Shown: in pieces, positions 5,796 to 36,283 of the stretch
How positions within the stretch are numbered: position 1 is the first letter of the stretch
How the letters are laid out: every line of letters starts with the position of its first letter
Program-made: the position numbers and the translations under genes
The notes under the pieces: model-generated
Databases searched by the model: none
What the model saw: only the letters and a program-made list of their open reading frames with translations
What the model was told of the DNA's origin: nothing
Assembly: GCA_016787295.1 (NCBI GenBank)
Contig: JAEUUX010000218.1
Coordinates: 1 to 51,840 of the forward strand
Length of the DNA: 51,840 nt
DNA from: Chitinophagales bacterium
GTDB taxonomy: Bacteria > Bacteroidota > Bacteroidia > Chitinophagales > UBA2359
Direction: 5' to 3'

Positions 5796-6437
5796 TTAAT
5801 AAGCTATTTGGTGCTTGAGATTCTGAAGAATGTGTATGATTTGCGCTAATTCGTTGGCTTGCGTCGCATCGTAATCTTTACTAAAACAATAATTTTTGTC
5901 GTGTAAAGTCGTAAAATACCAATGTTTTCCCAGCAAATAACAACCATAAATCGGAAATCCATCGGCGTTCAGGTGTTGAGCAATCAACATGGCAGTCAGC
6001 ATTTGACCTTCTGCATCGATAGCAGATTTTTTGCCTTTTTTAAATTCTTGCAAAAAAAAGTAAGGTTTTTGGGGTGTATTAATTCCCAAAGGTGCTGCCA
6101 ATAGCGCATCACAAATCACATAAAGCGGTGTATTTTCGATGGTAGCCGTCAACGGACGTTCATAGAAAAGTTTCATTTTTTTATCCACTTCCATTTTTGA
6201 AAACAAGAATACGATGGACAAAAAGTGCATTTTCAACTCTTCTTCGTTCCATAAATCGCCTTCTAAGCGCAATTTATGACGGCGTTCATCTAAAATTTCA
6301 GGTAATTGATAGCCACTACTTACTGTAACGTTTAACAAGTTGTCCAGAATAGGACAGTCTACGCCTCTTGATAAGCCAAAATGGGTTAGGATTTGGTCTA
6401 AATCGTATTTGGATTTTTTTACGTCGAAAATTTGCAT
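5796..6437 (-). CDS. PD-(D/E)XK nuclease-like protein
   Basis: The 213-residue product shows D110 (VICDALL) and E131-F-K133 (FLQEFKKGK), the spacing of a PD-(D/E)XK nuclease core. A downstream helix carries DAEGQM. I recall similar proteins as lone hypothetical genes in Bacteroidota. It lies between the Uma2 gene and the CCG Fe-S gene on the same strand, with gaps of 27 and 70 bases, so it is probably co-transcribed. It has no signal peptide or membrane segment. Substrate and role are unknown. Confidence 0.6.
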   Translation of the reverse strand: MQIFDVKKSKYDLDQILTHFGLSRGVDCPILDNLLNVTVSSGYQLPEILDERRHKLRLEGDLWNEEELKMHFLSIVFLFSKMEVDKKMKLFYERPLTATIENTPLYVICDALLAAPLGINTPQKPYFFLQEFKKGKKSAIDAEGQMLTAMLIAQHLNADGFPIYGCYLLGKHWYFTTLHDKNYCFSKDYDATQANELAQIIHILQNLKHQIAY

Positions 6438-6464
6438 TGTAGGTGTGTTATATGGTTACAAAAA

Positions 6465-7064
6465 TCAATCTTCTTCAGGCAAAAATACTTCGGAAAGTGG
6501 CATACTTAAGTCGGGAAAAAGTGCCGATGTAATCGTTTCGTTGGCGCTAAAAATTTGCTCTTCATAACGTTCGTTTTCCTGCAAAACACATTGCCAAACA
6601 ATGCGATTATTCGGGTCAACTATCCAATACTCTCGAACGTTGGCGCTGCGATACAACTCTTTTTTCGTCACCATATCCATTTGATAGGAACTCGGCGAAA
6701 TGATTTCGATAATCCAATCGGGCGCACCTACACAACCGCGCTTGTCCAACTTTTGCAGGTCGCACACCACGCAAAGGTCAGGCTGAACAACGGTAAAACT
6801 TTTTTCGGCAGCAGTTTGTGGGTTCTTTTCTAAACGAACGTCAAAAGGTGCGTGAAAAACACGACATTTATGCGTTTTAAAGTAAGTCCACAAATTACCA
6901 TATAAATTGCCACTAATGGCTTGATGCCTCATCGATGGAGCTGACATACGCACCATAATTTTGCCGCGAATAAGTTCTATCCATTCTTGGATTTGCCAAC
7001 TTAAATAATCAGCATAACTATAGTGTCCATTTTGTAGGTCTAATTGGGAGAGTTGTGTTATCAT
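6465..7064 (-). CDS. Uma2-family (DUF820) putative endonuclease
   Basis: The 199-residue protein has the Uma2 pattern: QPDLCVV (D96), GAPDWIIEIISPSS (E120), a lysine pair at about 134-135, and the family's REYWIVDP strand. Uma2 proteins have a PD-(D/E)XK fold, occur as many paralogues in cyanobacteria and some Bacteroidota, and have no settled biological role. The gene starts 12 bases after the stop of the membrane Fe-S gene, so it shares that transcript. Length is normal for the family and the active-site residues appear intact. Confidence 0.85.
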   Translation of the reverse strand: MITQLSQLDLQNGHYSYADYLSWQIQEWIELIRGKIMVRMSAPSMRHQAISGNLYGNLWTYFKTHKCRVFHAPFDVRLEKNPQTAAEKSFTVVQPDLCVVCDLQKLDKRGCVGAPDWIIEIISPSSYQMDMVTKKELYRSANVREYWIVDPNNRIVWQCVLQENERYEEQIFSANETITSALFPDLSMPLSEVFLPEED

Positions 7065-7076
7065 GGCAAAAGTATT

Positions 7077-8393
7077 TTATAGTTCCGTCACCCAATTGGC
7101 GCGATTTTCGGCGGGCATTTTCCACACAGCGCCATTCGTTTCGATATTGTTAAACATCAAATTCCATTCTTCGGGCGATTTTGATTCTTCGAGAATCAGG
7201 TAGCGTCGCATTTCCAAAATAATAGTCAGCGGATTAATGCTCACAGGACATTCTTCGACACAAGCATTACAGGTTGTGCAGGCGCGCAATTCTTCTATGC
7301 TAATATAGTCGTGTAACGATTTTCCGTCGTCGGCATCGTTGCTGTTGGTTTTTGCAAAAGCGGCTTTGTCTTCCATGCGGTCGCGTGTTGCCATCATGAC
7401 TTTTCGTGGCGACAAAAGCTTACCTGTTTGATTAGCAGGGCAGGCAGCAGTGCAGCGTCCACACTCGGTACAACTGTAAGCATCTAACAAACTTTTCCAA
7501 GAAAGGTCTTGCACATCTTTAGCACCAAATCGTTCAGGAGCGGCGTTGGGGTCTTCTTCGGGTGTGGGCAGCGAAGGGTCGAGCATCAGTTGTATCTCTT
7601 GCGTAATGCGTGGCATGTTTTTGATTTTGCCACGTGATTCCAAATCTCCAAAATAACTGTTCGGAAATGCCAACAAAATGTGCAAATGTTTAGAATATGG
7701 CAGATAGTTTAGGAACGCAAAAATACCCAAAATATGCGCCCACCAAGCCAAGCGCTCGATGATTTCGAGGGTTGTTACGCTACAATTGGCAAACAAAGGC
7801 ATCAATAAACCCGAAAAAAAGAAATGTCCAGTGGTATGATAATGTTCCGATGTGCCTTGTAGATGTTGGTCGGTGGCGTTCATCACCAATACAGCAAGCA
7901 TCAAAGTTATTTCTATGAACAAAATACGGTTAGCATCTTTGGCAGGAAAACCATGCAGGTCGGTATGTGCCAAACGCGGTACTTTTAGAACGTTTCTGCG
8001 CACCAAAAAAACGACACAGGACAGCAAAACTGCTACTGCTAAAAACTCAAAAAAGTTGATAGCAACCGCATAAATTCCGCCCAAATAAGGTGCAAACAAA
8101 CGGTGCGTTCCCAAAATACCGTCTAACACAATTTCGGCTACTTCGATATTAATCAGCAAAAAACCGACATACACAAAAAAGTGCAGAATAGCTGCGATGG
8201 GTTTTTTGAACATTTTTTGTTGTCCAAAAGCCAATAACAGCATATTTTTTAGGCGTACATTGGGATTGTCGTTGCGGTTTTCGGCTTTACCTTGCATAAT
8301 ATTTTGGTAAATTTCGCGTGCTTTTCGGCTAAATAGGTAGCCCGCCGCCGCAAGTGCCAACACGAATAATAATTGTTGTAAAATTCCGAGCAT
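7077..8393 (-). CDS. Membrane-bound 4Fe-4S oxidoreductase (NarI/HdrE-like plus ferredoxin domain)
   Basis: The 438-residue protein has about five to six membrane segments in its first 250 residues (at about 1-20, 67-90, 100-128, 160-180 and 190-235) and a C-terminal dicluster ferredoxin domain with CTECGRCTAACP and CTTCNACVEECP. Histidines in the membrane part (HFFVYVG, HTTGHFFF, WWAHILG) could ligate haem b as in NarI-type subunits. It pairs with the CCG protein encoded at 4925-5725; fused or adjacent HdrC/HdrB pairs are common. Together they would pass electrons between the membrane quinone pool and a cytosolic partner. The specific donor is not known. Confidence 0.8.
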   Translation of the reverse strand: MLGILQQLLFVLALAAAGYLFSRKAREIYQNIMQGKAENRNDNPNVRLKNMLLLAFGQQKMFKKPIAAILHFFVYVGFLLINIEVAEIVLDGILGTHRLFAPYLGGIYAVAINFFEFLAVAVLLSCVVFLVRRNVLKVPRLAHTDLHGFPAKDANRILFIEITLMLAVLVMNATDQHLQGTSEHYHTTGHFFFSGLLMPLFANCSVTTLEIIERLAWWAHILGIFAFLNYLPYSKHLHILLAFPNSYFGDLESRGKIKNMPRITQEIQLMLDPSLPTPEEDPNAAPERFGAKDVQDLSWKSLLDAYSCTECGRCTAACPANQTGKLLSPRKVMMATRDRMEDKAAFAKTNSNDADDGKSLHDYISIEELRACTTCNACVEECPVSINPLTIILEMRRYLILEESKSPEEWNLMFNNIETNGAVWKMPAENRANWVTEL

Positions 8394-8426
8394 TATTTTT
8401 GTTTTGGAAATGGGAAAGTAAGTAGA

Positions 8427-9068
8427 TTAAACGTGGGTTGTGGTGGATAGTGTTGCGTTTTGTATGGCGTTTTCGATGAGATAGTTCAATACGCCCAACA
8501 ATTCCGATAGATTTTTTAAGGGATAAAATTCGCTATCTATATAGACCGAAGTACCTTCTTTTTTCAAAAAATTCCACTCCGTGCCAGTAGTTACAGCGCC
8601 ATACAAAATGGGCAAAGATTTGTTTTCGACCTTTTTGTTGTACAAATCCACGCCACAAAGTTGGGCAATACATTGGGGAATACCCAATTCTAAGTCATTG
8701 TCTTTTGCTTCGACAACACAAAATATAGGACTTTCTACTTCTATGCTTTGTTTGGAATTGCTCAATACAAAATCGCATTCACCGTTTAAACCCAAATCTT
8801 TCTCGCCCTCGATATTCGCACCCGAATATAGCGCAAAAGAAAAATTATGTAAATATTGTAGCTCCGAAAGAACGGGAAAAACAATACCTTCGGAGCGCGA
8901 TTTTTCGTTAAAATAAGCAGTTCTATTGCGCGTATAACGTTCTAATAGTTGTACCAACAAAGCACTTGGTTCAACAGCAGGACAAGCAGGCAACCATGTG
9001 GTAAAATGAACACTAATGCCCAATTTTTGGCGCACACTTCTCAAATTTCGAAAGTCGCTATACTGCAT
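8427..9068 (-). CDS. PD-(D/E)XK nuclease-like protein, intact paralogue
   Basis: The 213-residue product carries GECDF (D99) and VVEAKDND (E120, K122), a PD-(D/E)XK core. I placed the start at 9068 (MQYSDFRNL) because the interrupted paralogue at 24105-24716 begins at the equivalent place; 15 extra upstream residues lack a counterpart. The two share (L/I)(Q/N)GxCDF, EAK, the GIxQCxAQ helix and the final DSE strand. It is the first gene of the Fe-S operon, 33 bases before the membrane Fe-S gene. A 10-bp inverted repeat lies 54 bases upstream. Function is unknown. Confidence 0.65.
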   Translation of the reverse strand: MQYSDFRNLRSVRQKLGISVHFTTWLPACPAVEPSALLVQLLERYTRNRTAYFNEKSRSEGIVFPVLSELQYLHNFSFALYSGANIEGEKDLGLNGECDFVLSNSKQSIEVESPIFCVVEAKDNDLELGIPQCIAQLCGVDLYNKKVENKSLPILYGAVTTGTEWNFLKKEGTSVYIDSEFYPLKNLSELLGVLNYLIENAIQNATLSTTTHV

Positions 9069-9121
9069 AAGTAACGATTTTTGGTGTTGCAAATAAGAGA
9101 ATAAACCACTCAAAACGCAAG

Positions 9122-9197: not shown

Positions 9198-9335
9198 TTA
9201 TAGTTTATTGGTAAACAATTCAAACAGATTTTGGTTGACATAAAAGTTGCTTTTGCCTATTTTGTGTTTCTGCAAAAAACCATCTGCTATTAGTAAGCAA
9301 CAGGCGCATTTGGTACATAATTTAGGCAAAAAAAC
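9198..9335 (-). pseudogene. Possible remnant of a Fic-type protein C-terminus
   Basis: A 45-codon frame with no start reads ADGFLQKHKIGKSNFYVN then LFELFTNK. I recall this as the winged-helix tail typical of Bacteroidota Fic proteins, where a helix is followed by GFL-x3-KIG(K/R)-x-N-x-YxN. The frame begins inside the last codons of the AIPR gene. If correct, a Fic gene once lay here and was mostly removed when the present downstream end of the AIPR gene formed. Confidence 0.25.
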
Positions 9336-12300
9336 TTAACAAATCTTGACTACGAAAGTAGGCAGACAATTGACGCGCATCAATATTAGGGTATCGAAGA
9401 TTCATATCTTGCAAGGCTTGGTTAATTTGTTCAACCGATTTTTTGAACAAACCTTCTTTGTTTTGCTCAAAATACTCTTTAGCGGCTCTAAATTTTTCGT
9501 GATTTAATTCTTGCAAATTTTTCATTTGTAGTGCCTCTAACAAATTTTCGCCCAACAACATAGCCACAAAATAGCTACTATATGGCAAGTGTGGATATTG
9601 CTGTATAAGTTTTTCTTTGCGGCGCTGGTTGTCGGCATAACGAAAAATCAATACAGCCATAATCATCTGCACTGCTTGCAACTCGTAAAATACTTTATCA
9701 TAGTACTTGCTAAATAAGTTCTTTGACTGAAACTTGGCAATGCCCGGTTGTCGCCTCCAAACTGCCATAACTGCTTCAGCGGCTGTTGCCATAGCAAAGC
9801 GTTCGGGTTCAACAGGGCTAAGGTCGCGCTTGATTTTGTAGTCATATCCCAAACCTTTTGCTGCTATTTGCAAATCGCGTTGTTTTTTATCGGTACTTCG
9901 CAAATCGCTCAAATCGATAGGGCTTTGACTATTCGTATTTTGTGCTATTTTCAATACTTGGTCTTCGTTTTCGGGTATTTCATACAAACGAAACAACACA
10001 AAAGCACGCGAATAATCTATATCGCCATGTTTCTTCATGGTTTCATAGATAGTTCGACAAGTTTGTCCACCGTTGATAATTTGCAATTTTTTGACAACTA
10101 CATTTTTTTCTCGCTCAAAGCCATTGGCGGTCAGATAATTACAAATAGCAGTTATGCCGTTGTTGTAGAAATAAAAGTTTTCGCATTCATCATTATCCAA
10201 CAAAGTGGCTTGAATTTGGGCATTAACGTTATTTTGTTCAGAGAGAAAACCGCGCACATTTGAATCAAAAACACTTTCTCCAAACGTTTCGACAAGTCTA
10301 TGAATTTCGCTCACGTGTACTTTGCCCACTAAAATTCGATGATTAAGGTTTTCGATAAGGCTTTCGCCCTTAAACGCCAAAGTTGTGTCGACTACGCGCG
10401 TTTTTCGCAAACGCTCCATAATAGCGGCATGATTAAAGTATACTAATTCCACGTCTTTGTCTTTTGCCAAAACATCACCTTCTTGTTGCCATTTTTCTCC
10501 ATTGTTGATAAACACCAATTTTACTCGCGGTACCTGCCCTGCTTTTTTTAGCGAATGAACTTCGGTCAACACGGCTTTTAGGCGCGAATTAACAGGAATT
10601 GAACTATTTTTATCGAGCAAATTAGATAAATTAGACAAGATACTTTTGATGGCATTCACAGGAAAATGATTTTCTTTGCGCAAATCAAAAACATATTTAC
10701 TTTGAAAAAGTACCAATAAAAATTCAAATTCATCGATAGCCTGCACAAATGCTGCATCAATGCCTTGATCGTTGCCACCGTCGGTAACTATTCGTTCTGC
10801 TGCTTCTTTGTCAATATTTAGGTAAATAGCAGTAGACAAAATAACAAATGCACGTGACATTTTTTGTTTTTCATCGCCAATATTTTCAAACCATTCAGGA
10901 TTCTCGCGCACCATATTGCGAATTTGTTGGTCAATAGCTGTTTTCTCAAGATAGGAAGCAGATAAAGCGAGGTTCGCAGAAGGCTGTGTCTCAAAAGCAA
11001 AAATGTATCTACTAAACTCTTCTAAGCGCTCCAAAGTATCACGCTTACCCAAAACGGCTGCCATCTCAAAAACACCTGGTCCCGCCATACTTCCTGTCAA
11101 TGCCAAACGGAATAAAGGCATTATTTCACCAATTTTCGCACCGTTTTCGGTGGCAAAAGCTTTGGTAGCGGCTTCCCACTCGCTGGCTGTAGAAGGGCTT
11201 TGTTTGGCTAAATGCTCGATTAAGCCATCAAAAACAGGTTGCAATTCGGCTTTCCATCGTTTTTGTACGGCTACATCGTCATATTTGGTGGGAGCATTGA
11301 ACAAATAAGCCGCTTCTGTCCAAACATCGGACACAAAAGTCAAACGGTCTTTCACCAAATCTATTACTTTTGTCAAAAATTCGGGCGCGGTATCTTCCAA
11401 ACCCGCAGGAGCCACCTGCAAGGCAAGTTCTGCCAAAGTAGCTGTATCTTTTTGGCGCAAATACTGCTGGTTGAACCATTTAGCTTTGTCAAAATCGAAG
11501 CGCGCACCATGTTTGCTCACGTGCGACATATCAAATTCCGCTATTAGTTCGTCCATAGAAAATATTTCGCGCTCGCCTTGTGGGTGCCAACCAAAGAACG
11601 CCAAAATATTGACAAAAGCATTGGCAAAAAAGCCCATTTCACGAAAACCGTTAGATGATTCACCCGTTTGTGCGTTTTTCCATGCCAAAGGATACACTGG
11701 AAAACCATATCTATCACCCGCTCGTTTGCTCAACTTGCCTTTGCCGTCGGGCGACAACATCAATGGCAAATGGGCAAAAACAGGCATAATGTCCGAAATA
11801 CCCAAGCCGCGATACAACAAAACGTGCAGCGGCGTGGACGACAACCATTCTTCGCCGCGAATAACGTGCGTAATTTGCATCGTATAATCATCAACCACAT
11901 TGGCGAGGTGATAAGTCGGCATACCATCTGATTTCATCAACACCTTATCGTCCAATTCGTTGGTCTCAAAAGTCACCGTTCCGCGCACCATGTCCGTAAA
12001 AGTCACTTTTTCATCGGCAGGCATTTTGAATCGAATAACATAGTCACCTGCTTCGATGTGTTGTTGCATCGTGGGAGAATCAACCGAAAATTGGTTGTTC
12101 ATCGTGGAGCGTGTAGCTGCGTTGTACTGAAAATTGGGGTTTTGTTGGCGCATTTGGTCTAATGCTTCTGCTGTATCAAAGGCATAGTAGGCATAACCAT
12201 TTTCCACCAAACGGTCGGCATATTGGCGATACATACTTTTTCGCTCCGACTGGCGATAAGGCGCACAATTGCCTCCAACATGTACGCCTTCGTCGCATTG

Positions 12301-12504
12301 GATCCCAAGCCAATTCAACGAATCGATGATGTATTGTTCAGCTTCTGCCACATAGCGCGTTTGGTCGGTGTCTTCTATGCGCAAAATGAAGTCTCCTCCA
12401 TGTTTTTTGGCAAATAAATAACAATATAGAGCTGTTCGAACGCCTCCAATGTGCTGAAAACCTGTGGGACTTGGGGCGTAACGGGTGCGTATTTTTCGTT
12501 GCAT
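9322..12504 (-). CDS. gltX: Glutamyl-tRNA synthetase fused to an AIPR phage-resistance protein
   Basis: This is one uninterrupted frame of 1060 residues. Residues 1 to about 502 are a full-length GltX: HIGG at 18-21, KLSKRAG for KMSKS, and the usual C-terminal anticodon-binding end (LGKRDTLERL). Residues about 503-1060 are a full-length AIPR (PF10592-type) protein: a restriction-endonuclease-like part with GGNDQGID (D583) and QSK (601-603), then VRGFLSEQN, FYFYNNGIT and LQIINGGQT, and a helical tail. GltX charges tRNA-Glu in translation; AIPR proteins are abortive-infection or R-M associated defence proteins. Both halves look complete, so the join is end to end near position 10999. Internal ATG codons just after the junction could give a free AIPR. 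An assembly error that removed a stop codon is the main alternative. Confidence 0.9.
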   Translation of the reverse strand: MQRKIRTRYAPSPTGFQHIGGVRTALYCYLFAKKHGGDFILRIEDTDQTRYVAEAEQYIIDSLNWLGIQCDEGVHVGGNCAPYRQSERKSMYRQYADRLVENGYAYYAFDTAEALDQMRQQNPNFQYNAATRSTMNNQFSVDSPTMQQHIEAGDYVIRFKMPADEKVTFTDMVRGTVTFETNELDDKVLMKSDGMPTYHLANVVDDYTMQITHVIRGEEWLSSTPLHVLLYRGLGISDIMPVFAHLPLMLSPDGKGKLSKRAGDRYGFPVYPLAWKNAQTGESSNGFREMGFFANAFVNILAFFGWHPQGEREIFSMDELIAEFDMSHVSKHGARFDFDKAKWFNQQYLRQKDTATLAELALQVAPAGLEDTAPEFLTKVIDLVKDRLTFVSDVWTEAAYLFNAPTKYDDVAVQKRWKAELQPVFDGLIEHLAKQSPSTASEWEAATKAFATENGAKIGEIMPLFRLALTGSMAGPGVFEMAAVLGKRDTLERLEEFSRYIFAFETQPSANLALSASYLEKTAIDQQIRNMVRENPEWFENIGDEKQKMSRAFVILSTAIYLNIDKEAAERIVTDGGNDQGIDAAFVQAIDEFEFLLVLFQSKYVFDLRKENHFPVNAIKSILSNLSNLLDKNSSIPVNSRLKAVLTEVHSLKKAGQVPRVKLVFINNGEKWQQEGDVLAKDKDVELVYFNHAAIMERLRKTRVVDTTLAFKGESLIENLNHRILVGKVHVSEIHRLVETFGESVFDSNVRGFLSEQNNVNAQIQATLLDNDECENFYFYNNGITAICNYLTANGFEREKNVVVKKLQIINGGQTCRTIYETMKKHGDIDYSRAFVLFRLYEIPENEDQVLKIAQNTNSQSPIDLSDLRSTDKKQRDLQIAAKGLGYDYKIKRDLSPVEPERFAMATAAEAVMAVWRRQPGIAKFQSKNLFSKYYDKVFYELQAVQMIMAVLIFRYADNQRRKEKLIQQYPHLPYSSYFVAMLLGENLLEALQMKNLQELNHEKFRAAKEYFEQNKEGLFKKSVEQINQALQDMNLRYPNIDARQLSAYFRSQDLLSFFA

Positions 12505-26797: not shown

Positions 26798-26840
26798 TGT
26801 TTTGCAATAACAATTGTATAAACTCAAAAAAAAATCCCCT

Positions 26841-29453
26841 ATGTCAAAAAACAGTACCATTATTACGGATCATTATCTGTTATTATTACCCTTATATTTC
26901 TGGCTTTTGGTTGCTATTGCAGCTAATGCCCAAACTTTCAATGCTTCCACTACTTTCCCTTTCAATGTTGATGGAGCAAACGGTTCGTGCGCTACTCCCG
27001 GTAGCGGAACACCCAATGTTGTCACTGTTCCTGTATCGGGTATCGGCACATTGAGCAGTGGTTTTGCCCTTACGCAGGTGCGCGTCACAATGACTGATTG
27101 TGGTAGCGGCACAAAAAACATGAACGCAGTGGCTTTTCGTGTTATGGCTCCCGGTGGCACTTGTGTTGGTGTCTATAATGGTGGCTTATCAACGGTGGCA
27201 ACAGGTTCTCACACCCTCAATTTGGTCTCCTCCGAAACTTGTCTTAACAACCCCGCTACTGCCAACGACCCTACCAGCGGAGCAACAGCAGGCACATCGG
27301 GCAATTATGGTTTTTTTAATGCCCAATTTGGTGGAACAGGCACTAATCTCACTTCCTCTTTCACTGGTATCAATGCTAATGGCAATTGGCAAATTATCTT
27401 CTCCGAAAGTACAGCATCTGCTCCTTGTATTGCGGGAGCTTCTTTGGTTTTTGGAGACCCTACTACAAGTGATCAAAGCGCCAACGGCAATACTTGTGCT
27501 GCCCCTATCGTTTGGACAGGTTCGCCTATCTGTGCTTCTACCAACAGCAAGACGGGTGAAATTAATTCACCGGGTTCTAACACAGGGCAAGGCGACTTGA
27601 CTTTATCTACTTTTGCTAATGGCACTTGTGCTTGGAATGCTAACAATAACAACGACGTTTGGATAAAATTCACTCCCACCAACACCAATGTCTGCATCTC
27701 TATTAGTGGTTTGGACTTTAGTTTGCAATCTATTATTGTCACAAATCCGAGCGGCGACGGCAGCACTTGTACTGCCAATGGCGAACAATGGAACGTCGTA
27801 TCATGTCCGCGAGACGCTATTTATACTACTACATCTGGCTCACAACTTAACCAACAACACTGCTTCACGGCTACGGTAGGCAATACCTATTATTTGGTCG
27901 TTGATGGCAATGGTGGCGCTGAATCTTCTTTTTATATTTCGGGCGTATCGGGTTTTCAAGCCACCGATTGCAACATTAGCGCTTTGACGGTGAGCAATGC
28001 GTCTGCCTGCAACGATAACGGCACGCCCGCCGATGCTACCGACGATTACTATACCGCCGATGTAACGGTTTCGTTTACCAATAAACCCACCACAGGCACT
28101 TTAAATCTTAGCGGTACGGATTTGCATAGCAGCAACACGGCATCAAGCATAGCTGTTGGCTTAACCACGACTGCCATTTCCCATACTTTTTCGGGTGTAA
28201 GAATAAAAGCCAACGGCTCTACCACAAGCATTACCGCTGCTTTTTCGGCTGCTGCCACCTGCACCTTTACCAGCAGTAGCATTGCCGCTGTTGCTTCTTG
28301 CTCTGCTGGTGGTACTTGTGGCGCTGCGCCGAGCATTAACCTTTTCGCCACATCGGGCAGCACCTGTAGCTCAAGTGCCATAACTGTTTCGGGCAATACA
28401 TTTAGCAACGCCAGCAATGTGACTGTTACCGCGAATGGAGCAGGAAGCATTACGGCGGGTGCGAGCAGCAGTTCGTCTCCTTTCAGTTTCACCTATACCC
28501 CTGCCACAGGCGAATCGGGTAGTGTGACCGTTACCGTCACCACCAACGACCCCGACGGCGCAGGCGCGTGTGTCGCTGCCACTGCTACCTATACTTTAAC
28601 GGTTGATGCCGACCCCGGTACTGCCGATAATACTACCTCCACCGCTACTATTTGTGAGGCAAGCACCAAGACATTGAGCGGCACGCCTGCCACAGGCACT
28701 TGGTCTATTATTGCAGGAGGTGGATCCATTAGCGGCAGCACCTATACGCCTGCCAACATTAGCACCGCCACCACTGTCACTGTTCGCTACAGCCTTGCAG
28801 CTAATGGCGCGTGTGCTGCCACGTCCGAAGACGTATCTTTCACCGTCACTCCCACCCCTGACGCTCCCACCGCCAGCGTCACCACCCAAGCCACGTGTGC
28901 TGCACCCACAGGCACGATTACTGTTACTGCTCCATCTGCCGCCGCAGGCACTACCTACACGGCTGCGGGTGTCTCTCCGACTTCGAGTGTGAGCAATGCG
29001 ACTGGTATTTTTAGTGGTTTGGCTCCCAATACCTATAATATTACGGCAACGGTTGACGGTTGCGTTTCTGCACCTACTCCTTTGACCCTTGCAGCTCCTA
29101 CGGGCTGTTCGGTGAGTGTTATCATCAGCGACCCATGTAACTGTGCCAACCGTATAGTTGTTGGTGGCGTGACTTATGCCCGCGAAACCATTACCATCAC
29201 CAGCAGCGGTTCGGGTGAAACATGGACTTTGAGCGGTGGAAGTGGTTTGTTTAGTGCCGTAGGTGTTGCTTTGCCCACCGATGGCTCTATCGTCTTGTCG
29301 GGCAGCGGCACTACCTATACTTTGGTGGCTTATGTCCCTGCTAATGGCGTTGCTACCTATACTGCCTCTTTCACCAACGGCGCACAAAATGCCAGCGTCA
29401 ATGGTGGTTCTTGTGCAGTTTGTTGTACAGCTAACAATGGCGCTTGGCAATAA
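26841..29453 (+). CDS. Large secreted Ser/Thr/Ala-rich protein with P-domain-like N-terminus
   Basis: The 870-residue product begins at MSKNSTIITDHYL, with a long signal peptide ending near AIAANAQ. Residues about 25-200 resemble a proprotein-convertase P domain (VTVPVSGIG, TQVRVTMTDCGSG, NGNWQIIFSES). Residues 200-380 resemble the Bacteroidota adhesin domain (NNDVWIKFTP, VVDGNGGAESSF). The remainder is Ig-like repeats rich in T, S, A and G (SVTVTVTTNDPDG, TVTVRYSLAANGAC). No type IX sorting domain is visible; the protein ends in a cysteine-rich tail, CAVCCTANNGAW plus Q. A similar tail ends the next gene. It is probably surface-exposed or released. Confidence 0.6.
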   Translation: MSKNSTIITDHYLLLLPLYFWLLVAIAANAQTFNASTTFPFNVDGANGSCATPGSGTPNVVTVPVSGIGTLSSGFALTQVRVTMTDCGSGTKNMNAVAFRVMAPGGTCVGVYNGGLSTVATGSHTLNLVSSETCLNNPATANDPTSGATAGTSGNYGFFNAQFGGTGTNLTSSFTGINANGNWQIIFSESTASAPCIAGASLVFGDPTTSDQSANGNTCAAPIVWTGSPICASTNSKTGEINSPGSNTGQGDLTLSTFANGTCAWNANNNNDVWIKFTPTNTNVCISISGLDFSLQSIIVTNPSGDGSTCTANGEQWNVVSCPRDAIYTTTSGSQLNQQHCFTATVGNTYYLVVDGNGGAESSFYISGVSGFQATDCNISALTVSNASACNDNGTPADATDDYYTADVTVSFTNKPTTGTLNLSGTDLHSSNTASSIAVGLTTTAISHTFSGVRIKANGSTTSITAAFSAAATCTFTSSSIAAVASCSAGGTCGAAPSINLFATSGSTCSSSAITVSGNTFSNASNVTVTANGAGSITAGASSSSSPFSFTYTPATGESGSVTVTVTTNDPDGAGACVAATATYTLTVDADPGTADNTTSTATICEASTKTLSGTPATGTWSIIAGGGSISGSTYTPANISTATTVTVRYSLAANGACAATSEDVSFTVTPTPDAPTASVTTQATCAAPTGTITVTAPSAAAGTTYTAAGVSPTSSVSNATGIFSGLAPNTYNITATVDGCVSAPTPLTLAAPTGCSVSVIISDPCNCANRIVVGGVTYARETITITSSGSGETWTLSGGSGLFSAVGVALPTDGSIVLSGSGTTYTLVAYVPANGVATYTASFTNGAQNASVNGGSCAVCCTANNGAWQ

Positions 29454-29495
29454 AATATCGGCTTATTTTGGTTTCATTTTTTAAAACAAACAACC

Positions 29496-30146
29496 ATGAT
29501 TAACAAACATCATATTCATAAATTCCTCTCCAAAGTAGCCCTTATTACCATTTGCCTGCTTAGTTTTGGGTCTAACAACAGTTGGGCGCAATGCACCTTT
29601 TCGGCTACGGTGCAAGGAAGTGCTGGCACCACAACGCGCTATTACTTAACCGACCCTCTCGGCAACGTTATCGATGATACCGCTCCCTATACAAGCCCTT
29701 CGGAAGGCAACTACCGTTTGTATGCCGTCACACACGACGCAAGCACCACCAATTTTCCTACCGTAGGTGGCAATGTATCGAGCATTACAGGCAATTGTTT
29801 TAGCATAGACTTTATTCCAGCTATTTGTCGTTGCTCAAGCAATAGTAACAACCTAAGCGTATCAACAACGGCATACAACACCAACTATACACAAAGCTAT
29901 GCCTTGATGAATGGCAGCACCATTGCAGCAGTCAATACCACTGGCACCTTTACGGCTGCCCAACTGACCGCCGCAGGACTTACCACTACTACTTTTGTTC
30001 GGATATATGCCATTAATCACGACGCAAGTGCCACGCCCACCGTTGGGCAAGCCTTACCCAATAGCGACTGCTACGATGCAGATAGTTTTGCACTTATTGG
30101 CGCTTATTCTTGCTGTGTCGCCAATGCAGGTACTTGGATTGAGTGA
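29496..30146 (+). CDS. Secreted protein with two tandem cysteine-containing repeats
   Basis: The 216-residue product has a signal peptide ending near NNSWAQ (about residue 31) and two related domains of about 85-90 residues, with matching blocks YRLYAVTHDAS and VRIYAINHDAS, each followed by a TVG strand and a paired Cys (GNCFSIDF; SDCYDADSF). It ends SCCVANAGTW plus IE, like the tail of the preceding gene (CCTANNGAW). The gap to that gene is 42 bases, so the two are probably co-transcribed. No sorting domain is seen. I do not recognise the family. Confidence 0.55.
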   Translation: MINKHHIHKFLSKVALITICLLSFGSNNSWAQCTFSATVQGSAGTTTRYYLTDPLGNVIDDTAPYTSPSEGNYRLYAVTHDASTTNFPTVGGNVSSITGNCFSIDFIPAICRCSSNSNNLSVSTTAYNTNYTQSYALMNGSTIAAVNTTGTFTAAQLTAAGLTTTTFVRIYAINHDASATPTVGQALPNSDCYDADSFALIGAYSCCVANAGTWIE

Positions 30147-30666
30147 GCGTCATTTGCCTTTTAGGTTCGTTTATGTCATATTGTTGCGCTAATACTGGCT
30201 ATTTAAGACGACAAAACAAAACAGTTACTACCCGCCACAACCCACACACTTGTCTACTGCCATAAGCAAGGTGTTTATGACTGTTTTTATTGTTTCAAAT
30301 TAAATAGACACAGCGACAATAGCAACACAAGCGAAAATCTTTAAACCGCTTTTCGTCACTGCACCACTCGTTATTTCATTGATAGCTAAACTTGTAAAGA
30401 TGCAATGAACATTCTAACTCAATACACAAAACAAATGGTATACGTATTGAAAAAGCAATATGGCTTTGTTCTGTTTTACGCCCTAATATTGTTGCGTTAA
30501 TGGGGTGTGTTGGAAAGCGACGGGAATATGTTGGTTTGTGTGCTACATTTTTTTTCTTTTTGACAAGGTATATTGAAAAACGATAGACAAAAGTTGGTTT
30601 GTTTTGCTCACTTTTTTTCTATCCGATACATTATCAGGAGCTACCTAAATAATGCTTTTGTTTTTT
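30147..30666. other. Non-coding stretch before the repeat zone
   Basis: No gene, terminator or repeat was recognised. The sequence is AT-rich with stops in all frames at short spacing. Confidence 0.5.
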
Positions 30667-30856
30667 AAACCCATATCATGAGCTTTTAGACCCATGCCGT
30701 GAGCTTTTAGACCCATATCATGAGCTTTTAGACCCATATCATGAGCTTTTAGACTCATATCATGAGCTTTTAGACCCATATCATGAGCTTTTAAACCCAT
30801 GCCGTGAGCTTTTAAACCCATGCCGTGAGCTTTTAAACCCATGCTGTGAGCTTCAT
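30667..30856. repeat. 21-bp tandem array A (nine units)
   Basis: The core GAGCTTTTA recurs at 30680, 30701, 30722, 30743, 30764, 30785, 30806, 30827 and (as GAGCTTCAT) 30848, always exactly 21 bases apart. Unit consensus is ACCCATATCATGAGCTTTTAG with ATATCA/TGCCGT variants. On the minus strand it translates as a heptapeptide repeat (MGLKAHD), but with no supporting gene signals. Confidence 0.9.
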
Positions 30857-30860
30857 GCAG

Positions 30861-31026
30861 CCATTCTAAAAGCTCATGTAATCATTCTAAAAGCTCATGT
30901 AATCATTCTAAAAGCCCATGTAGTCATTCTAAAAGCTCATGTAATCATTCTAAAAGCCCATGTAGTCATTCTAAAAGCCCATGTAGTCATTCTGTGAGCT
31001 TCATGTATCATTCTAAAAGCTCAAGT
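30861..31026. repeat. 21-bp tandem array B, inverted relative to array A (eight units)
   Basis: The core ATTCTAAAAGC recurs at 30863, 30884, 30905, 30926, 30947, 30968, 30989 (as ATTCTGTGAGC) and 31010, exactly 21 bases apart. TCTAAAAGCTCATG is the reverse complement of the array A core CATGAGCTTTTAGA, so the two arrays face each other across about 10 bases. Confidence 0.9.
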
Positions 31027-31180
31027 TAGGGTTTTGAAGCATTATAATGCCTATTTAAGGCATCAATTAAGCATTTTTATTAATATGGATAGCCATTTTA
31101 AAAACCAATATATCGCCTGCTAACAACAATATTGTAATTCAAAAAACAATAATATTGCCCTACAACAACACCATTTCACC
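31027..31180. other. AT-rich link between the 21-bp arrays and the long repeats
   Basis: Contains short inverted stretches (CATTATAATG, TAATATTG-type) but no gene or defined element. Confidence 0.4.
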
Positions 31181-31680
31181 CTACAACAACACAATATCAT
31201 TTCACCCTTTCAGGGTTTGTGTTATTCGGGCGGCGGTGACGGTTGCTATAAACGTTTCACCCTTTCAGGGTTGGAATGTGTGTTGTTTATTGCACATTTG
31301 GCTATTTATGTTTAACACCTTTGGCGTTGGTTGGTGCAATATTGGGGTGATATGTTGCAAATTGTCGGCTGTTCGTCGCATTATTACAACATAATGCACC
31401 ACGAAACCACCATTAAATAACACCATTTCACCCAATAACAACACAATATCATTTCACCCTTTCAGGGTTTGTGTTATTCGGGCGGTGGTGGCGGTTGCTA
31501 TAAACGTTTCACCCTTTCAGGGTTGGAATGCGTGTTGGTTATTGTACATTTGGCTATTTATGTTTAACACCTTTGGCGTTAGTTGGTGCATTATTGGGGT
31601 GATATTATACAAATTGTCGGCTGTTCATTACATTATTACAACATAATGCACCACGAAACCACCATTAAACAACATCATTT
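31181..31680. repeat. Two 252-bp repeats carrying inverted two-hairpin elements
   Basis: The segment TTCACCCTTTCAGGG at 31201 recurs at 31453, and the shared ATTATTACAACAT at 31380 recurs at 31632, both 252 bases apart. Each copy holds a pair of ACCCTTTCAGGGT hairpins 55 bases apart, separated by a GC-rich middle (GGGCGGCGGTGACGG). Part of each unit is shared with the 168-bp array to the right. Confidence 0.85.
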
Positions 31681-33516
31681 TACCCAATAAACCAAAAATA
31701 AACCCCGAAGGGGTGATAAGTTTATAGCAAAATAGAAATAACGGATTTTACAGAAACCCTGAAAGGGTGATATGTTGAAAATTGTCGGCTGTTCGTCGCA
31801 TTATTACAACATAATGCACCACAAAACCACTATCAAACAACATCATTTCACCCAATAAACCAAAAATAAACCCCGAAGGGGTGATAAGTTTATAGCAAAA
31901 TAGAAATAATAGATTTTACAAAAACCCTGAAAGGGTGATATGTTGCAAATTGTCGGCTGTTCGTCGCATTATTACAACATAATGCACCACGAAACCATCA
32001 TCAAACAACACCATTTCACCCAATAAACCAAAAATAAACCCCAAACGGGTTGACATTTTATAGCAAAATAGAAATAACGGATTTTACAGAAACCCTGAAA
32101 GGGTAATATGTTGCAAATTGTCGGCTGTTCATTACATTATTACAACATAATGCACCACGAAACCACCATCAAACAACAATATTTCACCCAATAAACCCAA
32201 AATAAACCCCGAAGGGGTGATAAGTTTATAGCAAAATAGAAATAACGGATTTTACAAAAACCCTGAAAGGGTGATATTTTGAAAATTGTCGGCTGTTCGT
32301 TGCATTATTACAACATAATGCACCACGAAACCACCATTAAACAACATCATTTCACCCAATAAACCAAAAATAAACCCCGAAGGGGTGACAAATTTATAGC
32401 AAAATAGATATAACGGATTTTACAGAAACCCTGAAAGGGTGATATTTTGAAAATTGTCGGCTGTTCGTCGCATTATTACAACATAATGCACCACGAAACC
32501 ACCATTAAACAACATCATTTCACCCAATAAACCCAAAATAAACCCCGAAGGGGTGATAAGTTTATAGCAAAATAGAAATAATAGATTTTACAGAAACCCT
32601 GAAAGGGTGACATTATACAAATTGTCGGCTGTTTGTTCCATTATTATAATGTAATGCACCGCAAAACCACCATCAAACAACATCGGTTCACCCAATAAAC
32701 CAAAAATAAACCCCGAAGGGGTGATAAATTTATAGCAAAATAGAAATAACGGATTTTACAGAAACCCTGAAAGGGTGACATTATGCAAATTGTCGGCTGT
32801 TTGTTCCATTATTATAATGTAATGTATAACGAAGCCACCATCAAATAACATCATTTCACCCAATAAAGCAAAAATAAACCCCGAAGGGGTGATAAGTTTA
32901 TAGCAAAATAGAAATAACGGATTTTACAAAAACCCCGAAGGGGTGACATTATGCAAATTGTCGGCTGTTTGTTCCATTATTATAATGTAACGTATAACGA
33001 AGCCACCATCAAATAACATCGATTCACCCAATAAACCAAAAATAAACCCCGAAGGGGTGATAAGTTTATAGCAAAATAGAAATAACGGATTTTACAAAAA
33101 CCCTGAAAGGGTGACATTATGCAAATTGTCGGCTGTTTGTCGCATTATTATAATGTAATGCACCACGAAACCACCATTAAACAGCATCATTTTACCCAAT
33201 AAACCAAAAATAAACCCCGAAGGGGTGATAAGTTTATAGCAAAATAGAAATAACGGATTTTACATAAACCCCGAAGGGGTGACATTATGCAAATCGTCGG
33301 CTGTTTGTTCCATTATTATAATGTAATGCACCGCAAAACCATCATCAAACAACAATATTTTACCCAATAAACCAAAAATAAACCCCGAAGGGGTGATAAG
33401 TTTATAGCAAAATAGAAATAACGGATTTTACAAAAACCCTGAAAGGGTGACATTATGCAAATCATCGGCTGTTTGTTCCATTATCACAACATAATGCACC
33501 ACAAAACCACCATAAA
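31681..33516. repeat. 168-bp tandem array, eleven units with no length change
   Basis: The hairpin ACCCCGAAGGGGT starts at 31703 (counting from CCCC) and recurs at 31871, 32039 (degenerate), 32207, 32375, 32543, 32711, 32879, 33047, 33215 and 33383, always 168 bases apart. A second hairpin ACCCTGAAAGGGT (or the CCCCG form) follows 54 bases later in each unit. Between the hairpins lies the conserved GTTTATAGCAAAATAGAAAT; after them comes TCGGCTGTTTGTTCC-ATTATTA. Units differ by substitutions only. No coding frame spans it. Confidence 0.9.
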
Positions 33517-33527
33517 ACACCACATCA

Positions 33528-33610
33528 TCATTTCGCCCTTTCAGGGTTTATGTTATTTGGGCGGCGATGACGGTTGCTATAAACGTTTCACCCTTTCAAG
33601 GTTGGAATAA
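33528..33610. repeat. Two-hairpin element, inverted orientation
   Basis: GCCCTTTCAGGGT and CACCCTTTCAAGG about 55 bases apart with the GGGCGGCGATGACGG middle, like those in the 252-bp repeats. It closes the right side of the array in opposite orientation to the 168-bp units. Confidence 0.75.
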
Positions 33611-33756
33611 TGCTAACATAAAACCAAAAATAAACTTGTCGAGCAACATTTCTCCATAAGGCAGGCTTGAAACGCTACCTTATGGGGAAGCAAACAAAGG
33701 CAACATTATTACCAAACACTATCAACATAAAACACTATCAACCCTCAAATCCACAA
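33611..33756. other. Spacer to the toxin-23-like gene
   Basis: Contains a short imperfect inverted repeat (CCATAAGG at 33654 and CCTTATGG at 33678) and no gene. Confidence 0.35.
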
Positions 33757-33791
33757 AAAAAGGGATATGCAAACGGCTGCATATCCCTTTT
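33757..33791 (-). terminator. Strong terminator of the methyltransferase/toxin-23-like operon
   Basis: A 14-bp perfect stem (AAAAGGGATATGCA and complement) with a 6-base loop is followed on the minus strand by seven T residues. It lies about 50 bases after the stop at 33843. Confidence 0.85.
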
Positions 33792-33842
33792 AGCATTTTG
33801 TCGGTTATTATAATGAAACACAAACAAAAAATACAGCCCGAA

Positions 33843-34799
33843 TCAATACAAACCCACATCATCTATATCCAATTTCCACCAAAACCGCGCTGGACGCACC
33901 TTTTGTCCCGCTTCATACAAATAAGGTTTGCCATTAGCATCGAGCATGGGTATGTGTGGGTTGCGGGCTTTATTCCATTGTTTCGGCACGAAAGGCATAT
34001 CGTGAATAAATCGGTTTTGAAGAAAATTGCGCACCTGTTCGGCATCAATACCTATCTGTGCATCGACAAGGCGCGGCAACAATGCACCAGCACGTGGCAC
34101 GGCATATTGCCATTGGGCTGCCAAAATGCCATGCGACACATCGGCATAGCGCTTATTGTTCATGTCATAATAACCGTATCGGGATTTAAAAGACGGATGT
34201 GTGCGCAGCTTTCGCGTACCGTTTTCGCGCGGGTTCGCCGTCCATAACACCGACCTAATACCCCACTGTTGAACGCCATAACGGTAGTATACAGCAAGGG
34301 CAGCCGTCCGAAACTTATCGCCACCTTTGCCTCCCCACAAATCATTCTCTATCAAACACGTCCAACGGTAGAACTGCGCGGCAATTTGTCCACTTTTTTG
34401 TGACGTATGTATGTTGTCCTTATAAACAATGAAGCTATACCCAAGGCTATATGCCTGACGAAGCGGGTGGCTCAAGAGGTCATAGAAAGGATTTGGCTGT
34501 TGCCAAAAACGCTGCCCCCAACTCACCACACCACCGACGTAGTACTGCTGCTGCCATCGCCTCAAGGAGGGACCCACGTCTTTCCAAGCATAATGGCATC
34601 GATATCCTACATTGATTTGTAGGTGTTCATAACCAATACGGGCGCTGGCATGAACACCAATTTTGCTCGACTGGCTACCAATGGCAGTGCTAATGCCCGC
34701 TATCCACTCTGTTTGGAGGCGTGGGCTTTGTGCAGCCACAAAAAAGGTGCTTAGATAGAGCAACAGCGAGCAATATGCGACAATTTTTCGGGTAATCAT
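33843..34799 (-). CDS. Secreted protein resembling polymorphic toxin type 23 proteins
   Basis: The 318-residue product (start ATG 34799) has a signal peptide (VAYCSLLLYLSTFFVAAQ) and a body rich in aromatic beta strands (IGYEHLQINVGYRCHY, LAVYYRYGVQQWGIRSV). The C-terminal block has VDAQIGIDAEQVRNFLQN, FIHDMPFVPKQW, HIPMLDANGKPYLYEAGQKVRP and FWWKLDIDDVGLY. I recall this C-terminal block from Bacteroidota proteins annotated 'polymorphic toxin type 23'. The ATG overlaps the stop of the methyltransferase gene by four bases (ATGA), so the two are translationally coupled. It is probably exported to the periplasm or outer membrane. Toxicity is not established and no immunity gene is visible. Confidence 0.55.
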   Translation of the reverse strand: MITRKIVAYCSLLLYLSTFFVAAQSPRLQTEWIAGISTAIGSQSSKIGVHASARIGYEHLQINVGYRCHYAWKDVGPSLRRWQQQYYVGGVVSWGQRFWQQPNPFYDLLSHPLRQAYSLGYSFIVYKDNIHTSQKSGQIAAQFYRWTCLIENDLWGGKGGDKFRTAALAVYYRYGVQQWGIRSVLWTANPRENGTRKLRTHPSFKSRYGYYDMNNKRYADVSHGILAAQWQYAVPRAGALLPRLVDAQIGIDAEQVRNFLQNRFIHDMPFVPKQWNKARNPHIPMLDANGKPYLYEAGQKVRPARFWWKLDIDDVGLY

Positions 34800-35701
34800 G
34801 TTGCGGAGGGGCTTGTGTAGGTGGATGAGCAACGAAAATCAGCCGACAAAGCCTTGAGACGCATCGAAGTGGTTTGTATAGCCGCCTCCGAGCAATCTAT
34901 ACCAATCCATTGGCGTTGCCAACGCTCCGCCACGACCACACTCGTTCCGCTGCCAACAAAAGGATCTATGATGACAGCACCTTTTTGGGTGGAGGCTAAA
35001 ATAATTCTTTCCAATAAGGCTTCGGGTTTTTGGGTGGGGTAGTCGCAACGCTCGCTGTGGCTTGCCTGCAAAGAGTTAATGTCTATCCACCAATCTTCGG
35101 GAACCTTGCCTTCGTCCAAATAGTAGCGGTAATAGCGCTTTTCGCCTTTGCTGTTTTTGCTGCCAAAGACTTCGCGATACACGCGCCCGTCCGCATCGGT
35201 CAAAAGCTTACCGCCAAAACTCTTGGTGCCGCTGTCCATCGGGATTTTGATAGCATCAGCACAAAAAGTCCATTGTTTACCTTTGGCATACCAAAATATA
35301 GTATCCTTTTTGCGAGCAAAACAGTTTGAACTGCGTCCGCCCATGTTGTAGCACCAAGCAATAACGTTGAGCAATTGTTTTGTACCAAAGATAGGGTCGA
35401 GTATTTGAGTGCGAATGTAGGCATCGGCATGCCAGTCACAATGCAAAAACAAGGTAGCGTCGGGTTTTAGACAGCGGTAGACCTCCTTAATTCGGGTGTG
35501 TAGCCATTGCAAATAGTCGGTCAAACCACCTTTCCACGTATCGCTAAAAGCAGAAAGGCTGCCATCGGTTTTGTTATAGGTTTTGTAGTCTTTATTAGAA
35601 AAAAAAGGAGGGTCAATATATACCATATCGGCAATATTGTCGGGTATCTGTTGCAAAATAGTGAGGTTGTCACCCCAAAGTAGTTGACCGTTCATGTTCA
35701 T
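34796..35701 (-). CDS. Beta-class DNA methyltransferase (N4-cytosine / N6-adenine)
   Basis: The 301-residue enzyme has motif IV DPPF at the N-terminal end (VYIDPPFFSNKDY) and motif I near the C-terminus (VIIDPFVGSGTSVVVAE), the beta-class order. DPPF is more typical of N6A and beta-class enzymes, with CDYPTQKPEALLERII as the adjoining motif. The target-recognition region lies between about 105 and 215. No restriction partner is seen; the coupled downstream gene encodes a secreted protein. A -7 box lies at 35718-35725. Two close ATGs (35701, 35695) are possible starts. It may be an orphan methylase or the remainder of an R-M system. Confidence 0.9.
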   Translation of the reverse strand: MNMNGQLLWGDNLTILQQIPDNIADMVYIDPPFFSNKDYKTYNKTDGSLSAFSDTWKGGLTDYLQWLHTRIKEVYRCLKPDATLFLHCDWHADAYIRTQILDPIFGTKQLLNVIAWCYNMGGRSSNCFARKKDTIFWYAKGKQWTFCADAIKIPMDSGTKSFGGKLLTDADGRVYREVFGSKNSKGEKRYYRYYLDEGKVPEDWWIDINSLQASHSERCDYPTQKPEALLERIILASTQKGAVIIDPFVGSGTSVVVAERWQRQWIGIDCSEAAIQTTSMRLKALSADFRCSSTYTSPSAT

Positions 35702-35985
35702 TATGGGATTTTGTGTGCAAAAGTACGATTTTCTGTGTATATGCTGTAGTTTGTGTTATAAATAAAACATCCCCTTTTGCAGCAATGGGAGCAAAGGGGG
35801 ATAGGGAGTGGGAGAGGGGAGGAGACGGTATTGGGTTTGTGTTTGAGTGGTGGAGCTATAACACGAGATAATGCGGGAATGACAACACAAAAGTTATTCT
35901 GCTTTTTATAGCGGGAAATATCAGAAAAAAAAGAAGCTAACATCAAAATCAATGACCTATAGAACAGTATTAATAAAGCCCGAAA
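35702..35985. other. Intergenic region upstream of the methyltransferase
   Basis: Contains the promoter box at 35718-35725 and G-rich sequence (35790-35830). A minus-strand frame at 35701-35952 has no protein character. Confidence 0.45.
35718..35725 (-). promoter_or_regulatory. -7 promoter box (TACTTTTG) for the methyltransferase operon
   Basis: TAnnTTTG element 17 bases upstream of the ATG at 35701, giving a very short or absent leader. Confidence 0.55.
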
Positions 35986-36283
35986 GATTTCAACTTTTAA
36001 CCCTTCGGGGGTTCAAAACCCGCAAAAGGTTTCAACTTTTAACCCTTCGGGGGTTCAAAACCCGCAAAAGGTTTCAACTTTTAACCCTTCGGGGGTTCAA
36101 AACCCGCAAAAGGTTTTAACTTTCAACCCTTCGGGGGTTCAAAACCCGCAAAAGGTTTCAACTTTCAACCCTTCGGGGGTTCAAAACCCGCAAAAGGTTT
36201 TAACTTTCAACCCTTCGGGGATTCAAAACCCGCAAAAGATTTCAACTTTCAACCCTTCGGGGGTTCAAAACCCCCGAAGGGTT
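35986..36283. repeat. 42-bp tandem array, seven units
   Basis: CCCTTCGGGG recurs at 36001, 36043, 36085, 36127, 36169, 36211 and 36253, exactly 42 bases apart. Each unit holds a small stem with a TTCGG loop (AACCC-TTCGG-GGGTT) and GGGTTCAAAACCC. The last unit differs: it ends in a perfect 15-bp hairpin (AACCCTTCGGGGGTT, loop CAAA, then the complement). Confidence 0.9.

Follow-up and report, generated by a model that had tools for sequence, protein, structure and literature searches.

A glutamyl-tRNA synthetase joined in one reading frame to an AIPR/AbiU-type protein: an apparently one-genome fusion in a Chitinophagales bacterium

Why should an essential housekeeping enzyme and a defence-type protein share a single reading frame? 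The question arose in a contig of 51,840 nucleotides (hereafter the window) from a Chitinophagales bacterium, in which an initial annotation had described one open frame of 1060 codons joining glutamyl-tRNA synthetase (GluRS, the gltX product) to an AIPR protein. We confirmed this frame at 9322-12504 and placed it on the minus strand, which the annotation had not given; it is uninterrupted and holds no internal stop codon. The fusion is known from the assembled sequence of one MAG in one assembly (G000; 5.42 Mb in 296 contigs, 98.34% complete and 0.21% contaminated). Judged by sequence comparison, chance similarity cannot be the reason why two long, separately conserved proteins share one frame. 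The features are as follows.

9322..12504, minus strand: gltX-AIPR fusion ORF, 1060 aa, ATG start, stop included
10990..12504, minus strand: GluRS part, about residues 1-505, with HIGG, KLSKR and the catalytic and anticodon-binding domains
10957..10989, minus strand: linker TQPSANLALSA, about residues 506-516, placed from GltX ends, AIPR starts and pLDDT
9322..10956, minus strand: AIPR part, residues 517-1060, full length, own start codon absent
10405..10953, minus strand: predicted PD-(D/E)XK nuclease domain, residues about 518-700, with D583, Q601 and K603
9913..10362, minus strand: predicted ParB/SspE-like domain, residues about 715-864, with YNNGIT and INGGQT; a fold resemblance with weak scores
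10912..10914, minus strand: first in-frame ATG past the join (M531), C-terminal to the conserved I-D-Q motif (residues 524-526)

The GluRS half matched TIGR00464 (gltX_bact) over residues 4-497 with 467.6 bits, where the cut-off is 289.95. PF00749 (residues 4-343) and PF19269 (358-496) were both essentially complete. The equivalog score and the two class I signatures, HIGG and KLSKR, identify this half as a bacterial GltX, and the earlier description of a complete and apparently catalytically intact enzyme holds. It shared 55-57% identity with GltX of the same family and deviated at none of the 114 columns invariant among 29 relatives. Its terminal branch was 0.61 against a median of 0.31, a milder lengthening than that of the AIPR half. 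The top Foldseek matches were Elizabethkingia GluRS structures (6brl and 6b1z); the fold match to 6brl reached a TMt of 0.94, and the window protein adds about 543 C-terminal residues to it. The search for a second gltX that the annotation had proposed found none in the genome (98.34% complete), the next-best match being GlnRS-like at 25% identity on contig C57. As the sole GluRS of this genome, the fusion would charge tRNA-Glu as before.

The AIPR half matched PF10592 (AIPR) with 142-144 bits against a cut-off of 25 over residues 746-1000, and the PADLOC AbiU match covered residues 545-1044. It was full-length in both alignments (A1 and A5), and D583, Q601 and K603 were invariant among 31 aligned sequences. 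A complete AIPR protein with a D583-Q601-x-K603 core and the YNNGIT and INGGQT motifs is thus present, as had been annotated. It is not a separate gene with its own start, as no start codon lies at the homologous position. This concerns the form of the gene and leaves the homology to the AIPR family unaffected. In the tree, the AIPR half grouped with solitary AIPRs from Bacteroidota, Endomicrobium, a spirochaete and Aquibacillus (support 1.0), and the closest free AIPR genes adjoin unrelated, housekeeping-type genes. The genome carries a distant second AIPR on contig C105. The free AIPR/AbiU-type relatives (L090 and L097-L104, from Bacteroidota, Spirochaetia, Bacillota and Endomicrobium) were 40-42% identical over the full length and, like the window protein, have the predicted nuclease core, the motifs and the form of a single solitary gene. 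They differ in being unfused, with their own ATG or GTG, and in being less divergent than the window AIPR, which continues from GltX.

AIPRs of BREX operons belong to the same subfamily (36% identity over the full length), for instance in the arrangements PglX-AIPR-PglZ-BrxL (L149) and methylase-AIPR-SNF2 helicase-PglZ (L091). AIPR genes lie between BREX genes in unrelated phyla (L149, L141, L163, L166, L169, L091, L094, L107 and L111), and their partners are either PglX with PglZ/BrxL or a methylase with SNF2 helicase/PglZ. The window differs in that no BREX gene (PglX, PglZ, helicase, Lon) was found among the Pfam-scanned ORFs between 72 and 41671, nor any by PADLOC near the fusion. The words AIPR and AbiU are absent from a 2026 survey of BREX (PMC12839542).

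What kind of protein is the AIPR half? Solved AIPR structures, sought by sequence, gave one marginal match (E 0.023), and we modelled the AIPR half from an input that left out plasmid-derived rows (pLDDT 86). Residues 1-183 of the model matched PD-(D/E)XK nucleases in VIA-align, with FokI at Z 9.5, MspJI at 8.3, Avs4 at 7.9 and HamA at 7.1. The predicted model has the PD-(D/E)XK core fold and a D...(D/E/Q)xK site; MspJI also uses a D...Q-x-K site. Foldseek alone ranked MspJI first, yet returned nothing under 0.001. Residues of about 198-347 resembled ParB-N (Z 6.6-5.5), PadC (5.7) and SspE (5.3-5.1), and scores of Z 5-6.6 lie inside the range of common arrangements. The sequence identity of the AIPR domains to MspJI/FokI and SspE/ParB was 6-16%; the likeness is one of predicted fold. 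From these fold matches, we predict that the AIPR half is a PD-(D/E)XK nuclease, followed by a weaker ParB/SspE-like match. The parallels with DNA-cutting enzymes of the FokI/MspJI kind suggest that the substrate would be DNA rather than tRNA. The older literature connects AIPR with R-M loci and gives it a HEPN domain (PMC3506569, PMC2292703). We considered a HEPN RNase as the AIPR nuclease (PMC3506569) and set it aside: the subfamily model shows PD-(D/E)XK instead, and a HEPN fold, although not among the matches listed for it, may still be present.

We then located the join. The GltX proteins of 29 relatives terminate at columns matching window residues 501-511, and among 74 free AIPR homologues of nearly full length, 57 begin exactly at the column of residue 517. 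The annotation was right about an end-to-end joining, but its position at about residue 502 is better given as 505-517. From these alignments, the product is two full proteins linked by 5-15 residues, the sole loss being the AIPR initiator methionine. An AlphaFold2 model of the entire fusion had a mean pLDDT of 87, with both halves confidently folded and only residues 508-514 falling under 50; at a pTM of 0.53, the relative placement of the halves is not fixed by the model. No in-frame ATG, GTG or TTG occurs between codons 491 (TTG) and 531 (ATG). The I-D-Q motif, which precedes M531, is kept in practically all homologues covering that stretch. GC content steps at the join from 0.458 in gltX to 0.378 in the AIPR part. 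Two tandem TAG codons lie in another frame right at the usual gltX end; they could be the ancestral gltX stop, though chance may have put them there.

The out-of-frame TAG pair raises the possibility that separate gltX and AIPR genes were merged by a chimeric join or an indel in the assembly, as a one-base change would split them again. The source, one MAG in 296 contigs, and the foreign low-GC defence genes on the same contig also lend this some weight. However, restoring the gltX stop would leave the AIPR gene startless until codon 531, past I-D-Q, and one indel is insufficient. With the AIPR start codon absent too, one wrong base at the gltX stop is not enough to account for the fusion, and the stop or frameshift error near position 10999 for which the annotation had allowed is disfavoured by the sequence. 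No repeat of the join DNA longer than about 20 bases occurs at any other place in the genome. Repeat-driven misassembly was rejected, as such matches were at chance level only. The Fe-S protein gene on one flank and the 3-hydroxyacyl-CoA dehydrogenase gene on the other had best matches of 67% and 71% identity, both in the same bacterial family. This disfavours a chimera across species, while a chimera within the species may still underlie the join. An in-frame chimera sparing both domains is moreover improbable a priori. We therefore consider an artefact unlikely.

Is the arrangement found elsewhere? The samples of relatives and of order, class and phylum genomes overlap. None of the GltX matches in about 100 relatives extended into the AIPR part. 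At the order level no GltX-AIPR fusion was present among the matches listed from 398 genomes, and at the class level no GltX match at E <= 1e-250 reached into the AIPR part in 395 genomes. Close AIPR relatives in 395 genomes of the phylum had open frames of 446-579 codons, apart from one end fragment. A scan of GTDB r220 gave at least 80 AIPR loci, which we pooled with ten others; among the matches listed, none was credibly fused to anything, and GltX was carried by or adjoined 0 of 88 loci. Two candidates (L122 and L133) had long upstream frames that were of low complexity or were re-called without the extension, and look spurious. A single-protein query of IMG/VR returned no AIPR homologues. 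The annotation knew of no described GltX-AIPR fusion, and our search of open-licence papers found none either. By these sequence searches, the fusion is apparently unique to one genome in the samples checked.

The surroundings of the gene hold further defence-type genes. About 5 kb past the AIPR end, at the contig end (72-4527), lies a small low-GC island (0.27-0.35) encoding an EcoRI-family endonuclease (504 bits), a DUF2326 protein and an SMEK-CTD10 protein of the ABC-three-component type. The GC step and this island on the same contig fit a site prone to acquiring defence genes. Immediately downstream of the fusion (5796-9113), an Fe-S oxidoreductase gene lies among genes that encode a Uma2 protein and two PD-(D/E)XK-like proteins. 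Farther away, a 168-base unit is repeated in tandem at 31597-33528 (11.5 copies, 91% match), with more arrays of 252-, 63-, 42- and 21-base units within 30663-36273. Adjoining these arrays, an Ntox23-domain protein and an N6_N4 DNA methylase are encoded in overlapping frames (33843-35701). At 26814-30146, GC content rises to 0.51-0.53 from about 0.43 around it, and two ORFs there lack a Pfam match. Synteny around gltX is not conserved among genomes of the same family, so the former downstream gene cannot be named.

How might the fusion have arisen? We think it probable that it is a genuine lineage-specific fusion, in which a solitary AIPR/AbiU-type gene landed behind gltX, the stop and then the start were lost, and a bifunctional protein resulted. 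The defence gene would have been taken up immediately after gltX, in the same orientation, and the low GC of the AIPR part relative to gltX is in line with acquisition. An insertion of a mobile element at the gltX 3' end with a duplicated target was rejected, as the AIPR part is not bordered by any convincing direct repeats. Presumably the gltX stop was lost first and the AIPR start, no longer needed, afterwards, and a single bifunctional protein would now be translated from the gltX start. Its AIPR half would be a dormant DNA nuclease of the PD-(D/E)XK type, regulated through a ParB/SspE-like domain, and would respond to infection or to foreign DNA, presumably in the manner of its free relatives. 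The fusion would put this half under constant, housekeeping-level expression, and any upstream stop or frameshift silencing it would also destroy the essential enzyme.

Whether the AIPR half is still active bears on this reading. Its terminal branch is 1.19 substitutions per site against a median of 0.21, the second-longest in its tree. It has altered 8 of 72 near-invariant sites (F630L, P632K, R650H, L745V, R759N, F791L, T854A and A856N), the highest number among 75 sequences, against none at the invariant columns of GltX. From these changes the half may be altered or losing function, and a relaxed or inactive tail tolerated as an appendage of an essential enzyme would explain them. Yet all catalytic and motif residues (D583, Q601 and K603, YNNGIT, INGGQT) are retained, about 543 codons remain open, and the PF10592 score of 144 is near the 151-161 of close free relatives. 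The retained residues and the near-relative score argue for constraint across most of the branch, along which 64 of the 72 sites survived, unlike under neutral drift; the fusion may be younger than the branch. A passenger tail is, in our judgement, quite unlikely.

The initial annotation went further and proposed that the nuclease is tethered to tRNA-Glu or the translation machinery, or that a phage disturbing GltX triggers it. A phage that interferes with GluRS, tRNA-Glu or translation would then release the nuclease, or tRNA binding would restrain it. The covalent one-to-one link and the short linker would permit such coupling, and GltX is a known toxin target, being phosphorylated by the HipA toxin (PMC8262856). 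Neither proposal has positive support, however. The nuclease fold is like that of DNA nucleases, the free relatives, solitary or in BREX operons, need no GltX, and GltX is neither in nor beside any of the 88 AIPR loci noted above. With the fusion in a single genome, no recurring association of GltX with AIPR calls for an explanation. We regard functional coupling as very unlikely, and an integrated immune enzyme, in which the synthetase senses or inhibits the fused nuclease and unleashes it when a phage or toxin disturbs GluRS or translation, as very unlikely too. Most likely, the fusion is genuine yet incidental, confined to one lineage and not a new defence mechanism, and each half probably goes on with its customary function. 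A one-species synthetase fusion has a precedent in the MetRS-aminotransferase of Mycoplasma penetrans, one ORF shown at the protein level in vivo (PMC7694997). That fusion appends a metabolic enzyme supplying the amino acid, whereas the present one appends a defence-type nuclease.

As a rule, defence genes can be spared and are readily lost. A defence nuclease locked to an enzyme that the cell needs would be an uncommon route to fixing a costly gene in a genome. The fusion would also be a natural test of how harmless an AIPR protein is at housekeeping expression, that is, of how strictly it is triggered. For the poorly understood AIPR family, the reading of the fold as MspJI/FokI-like and ParB/SspE-like offers a testable biochemical hypothesis.
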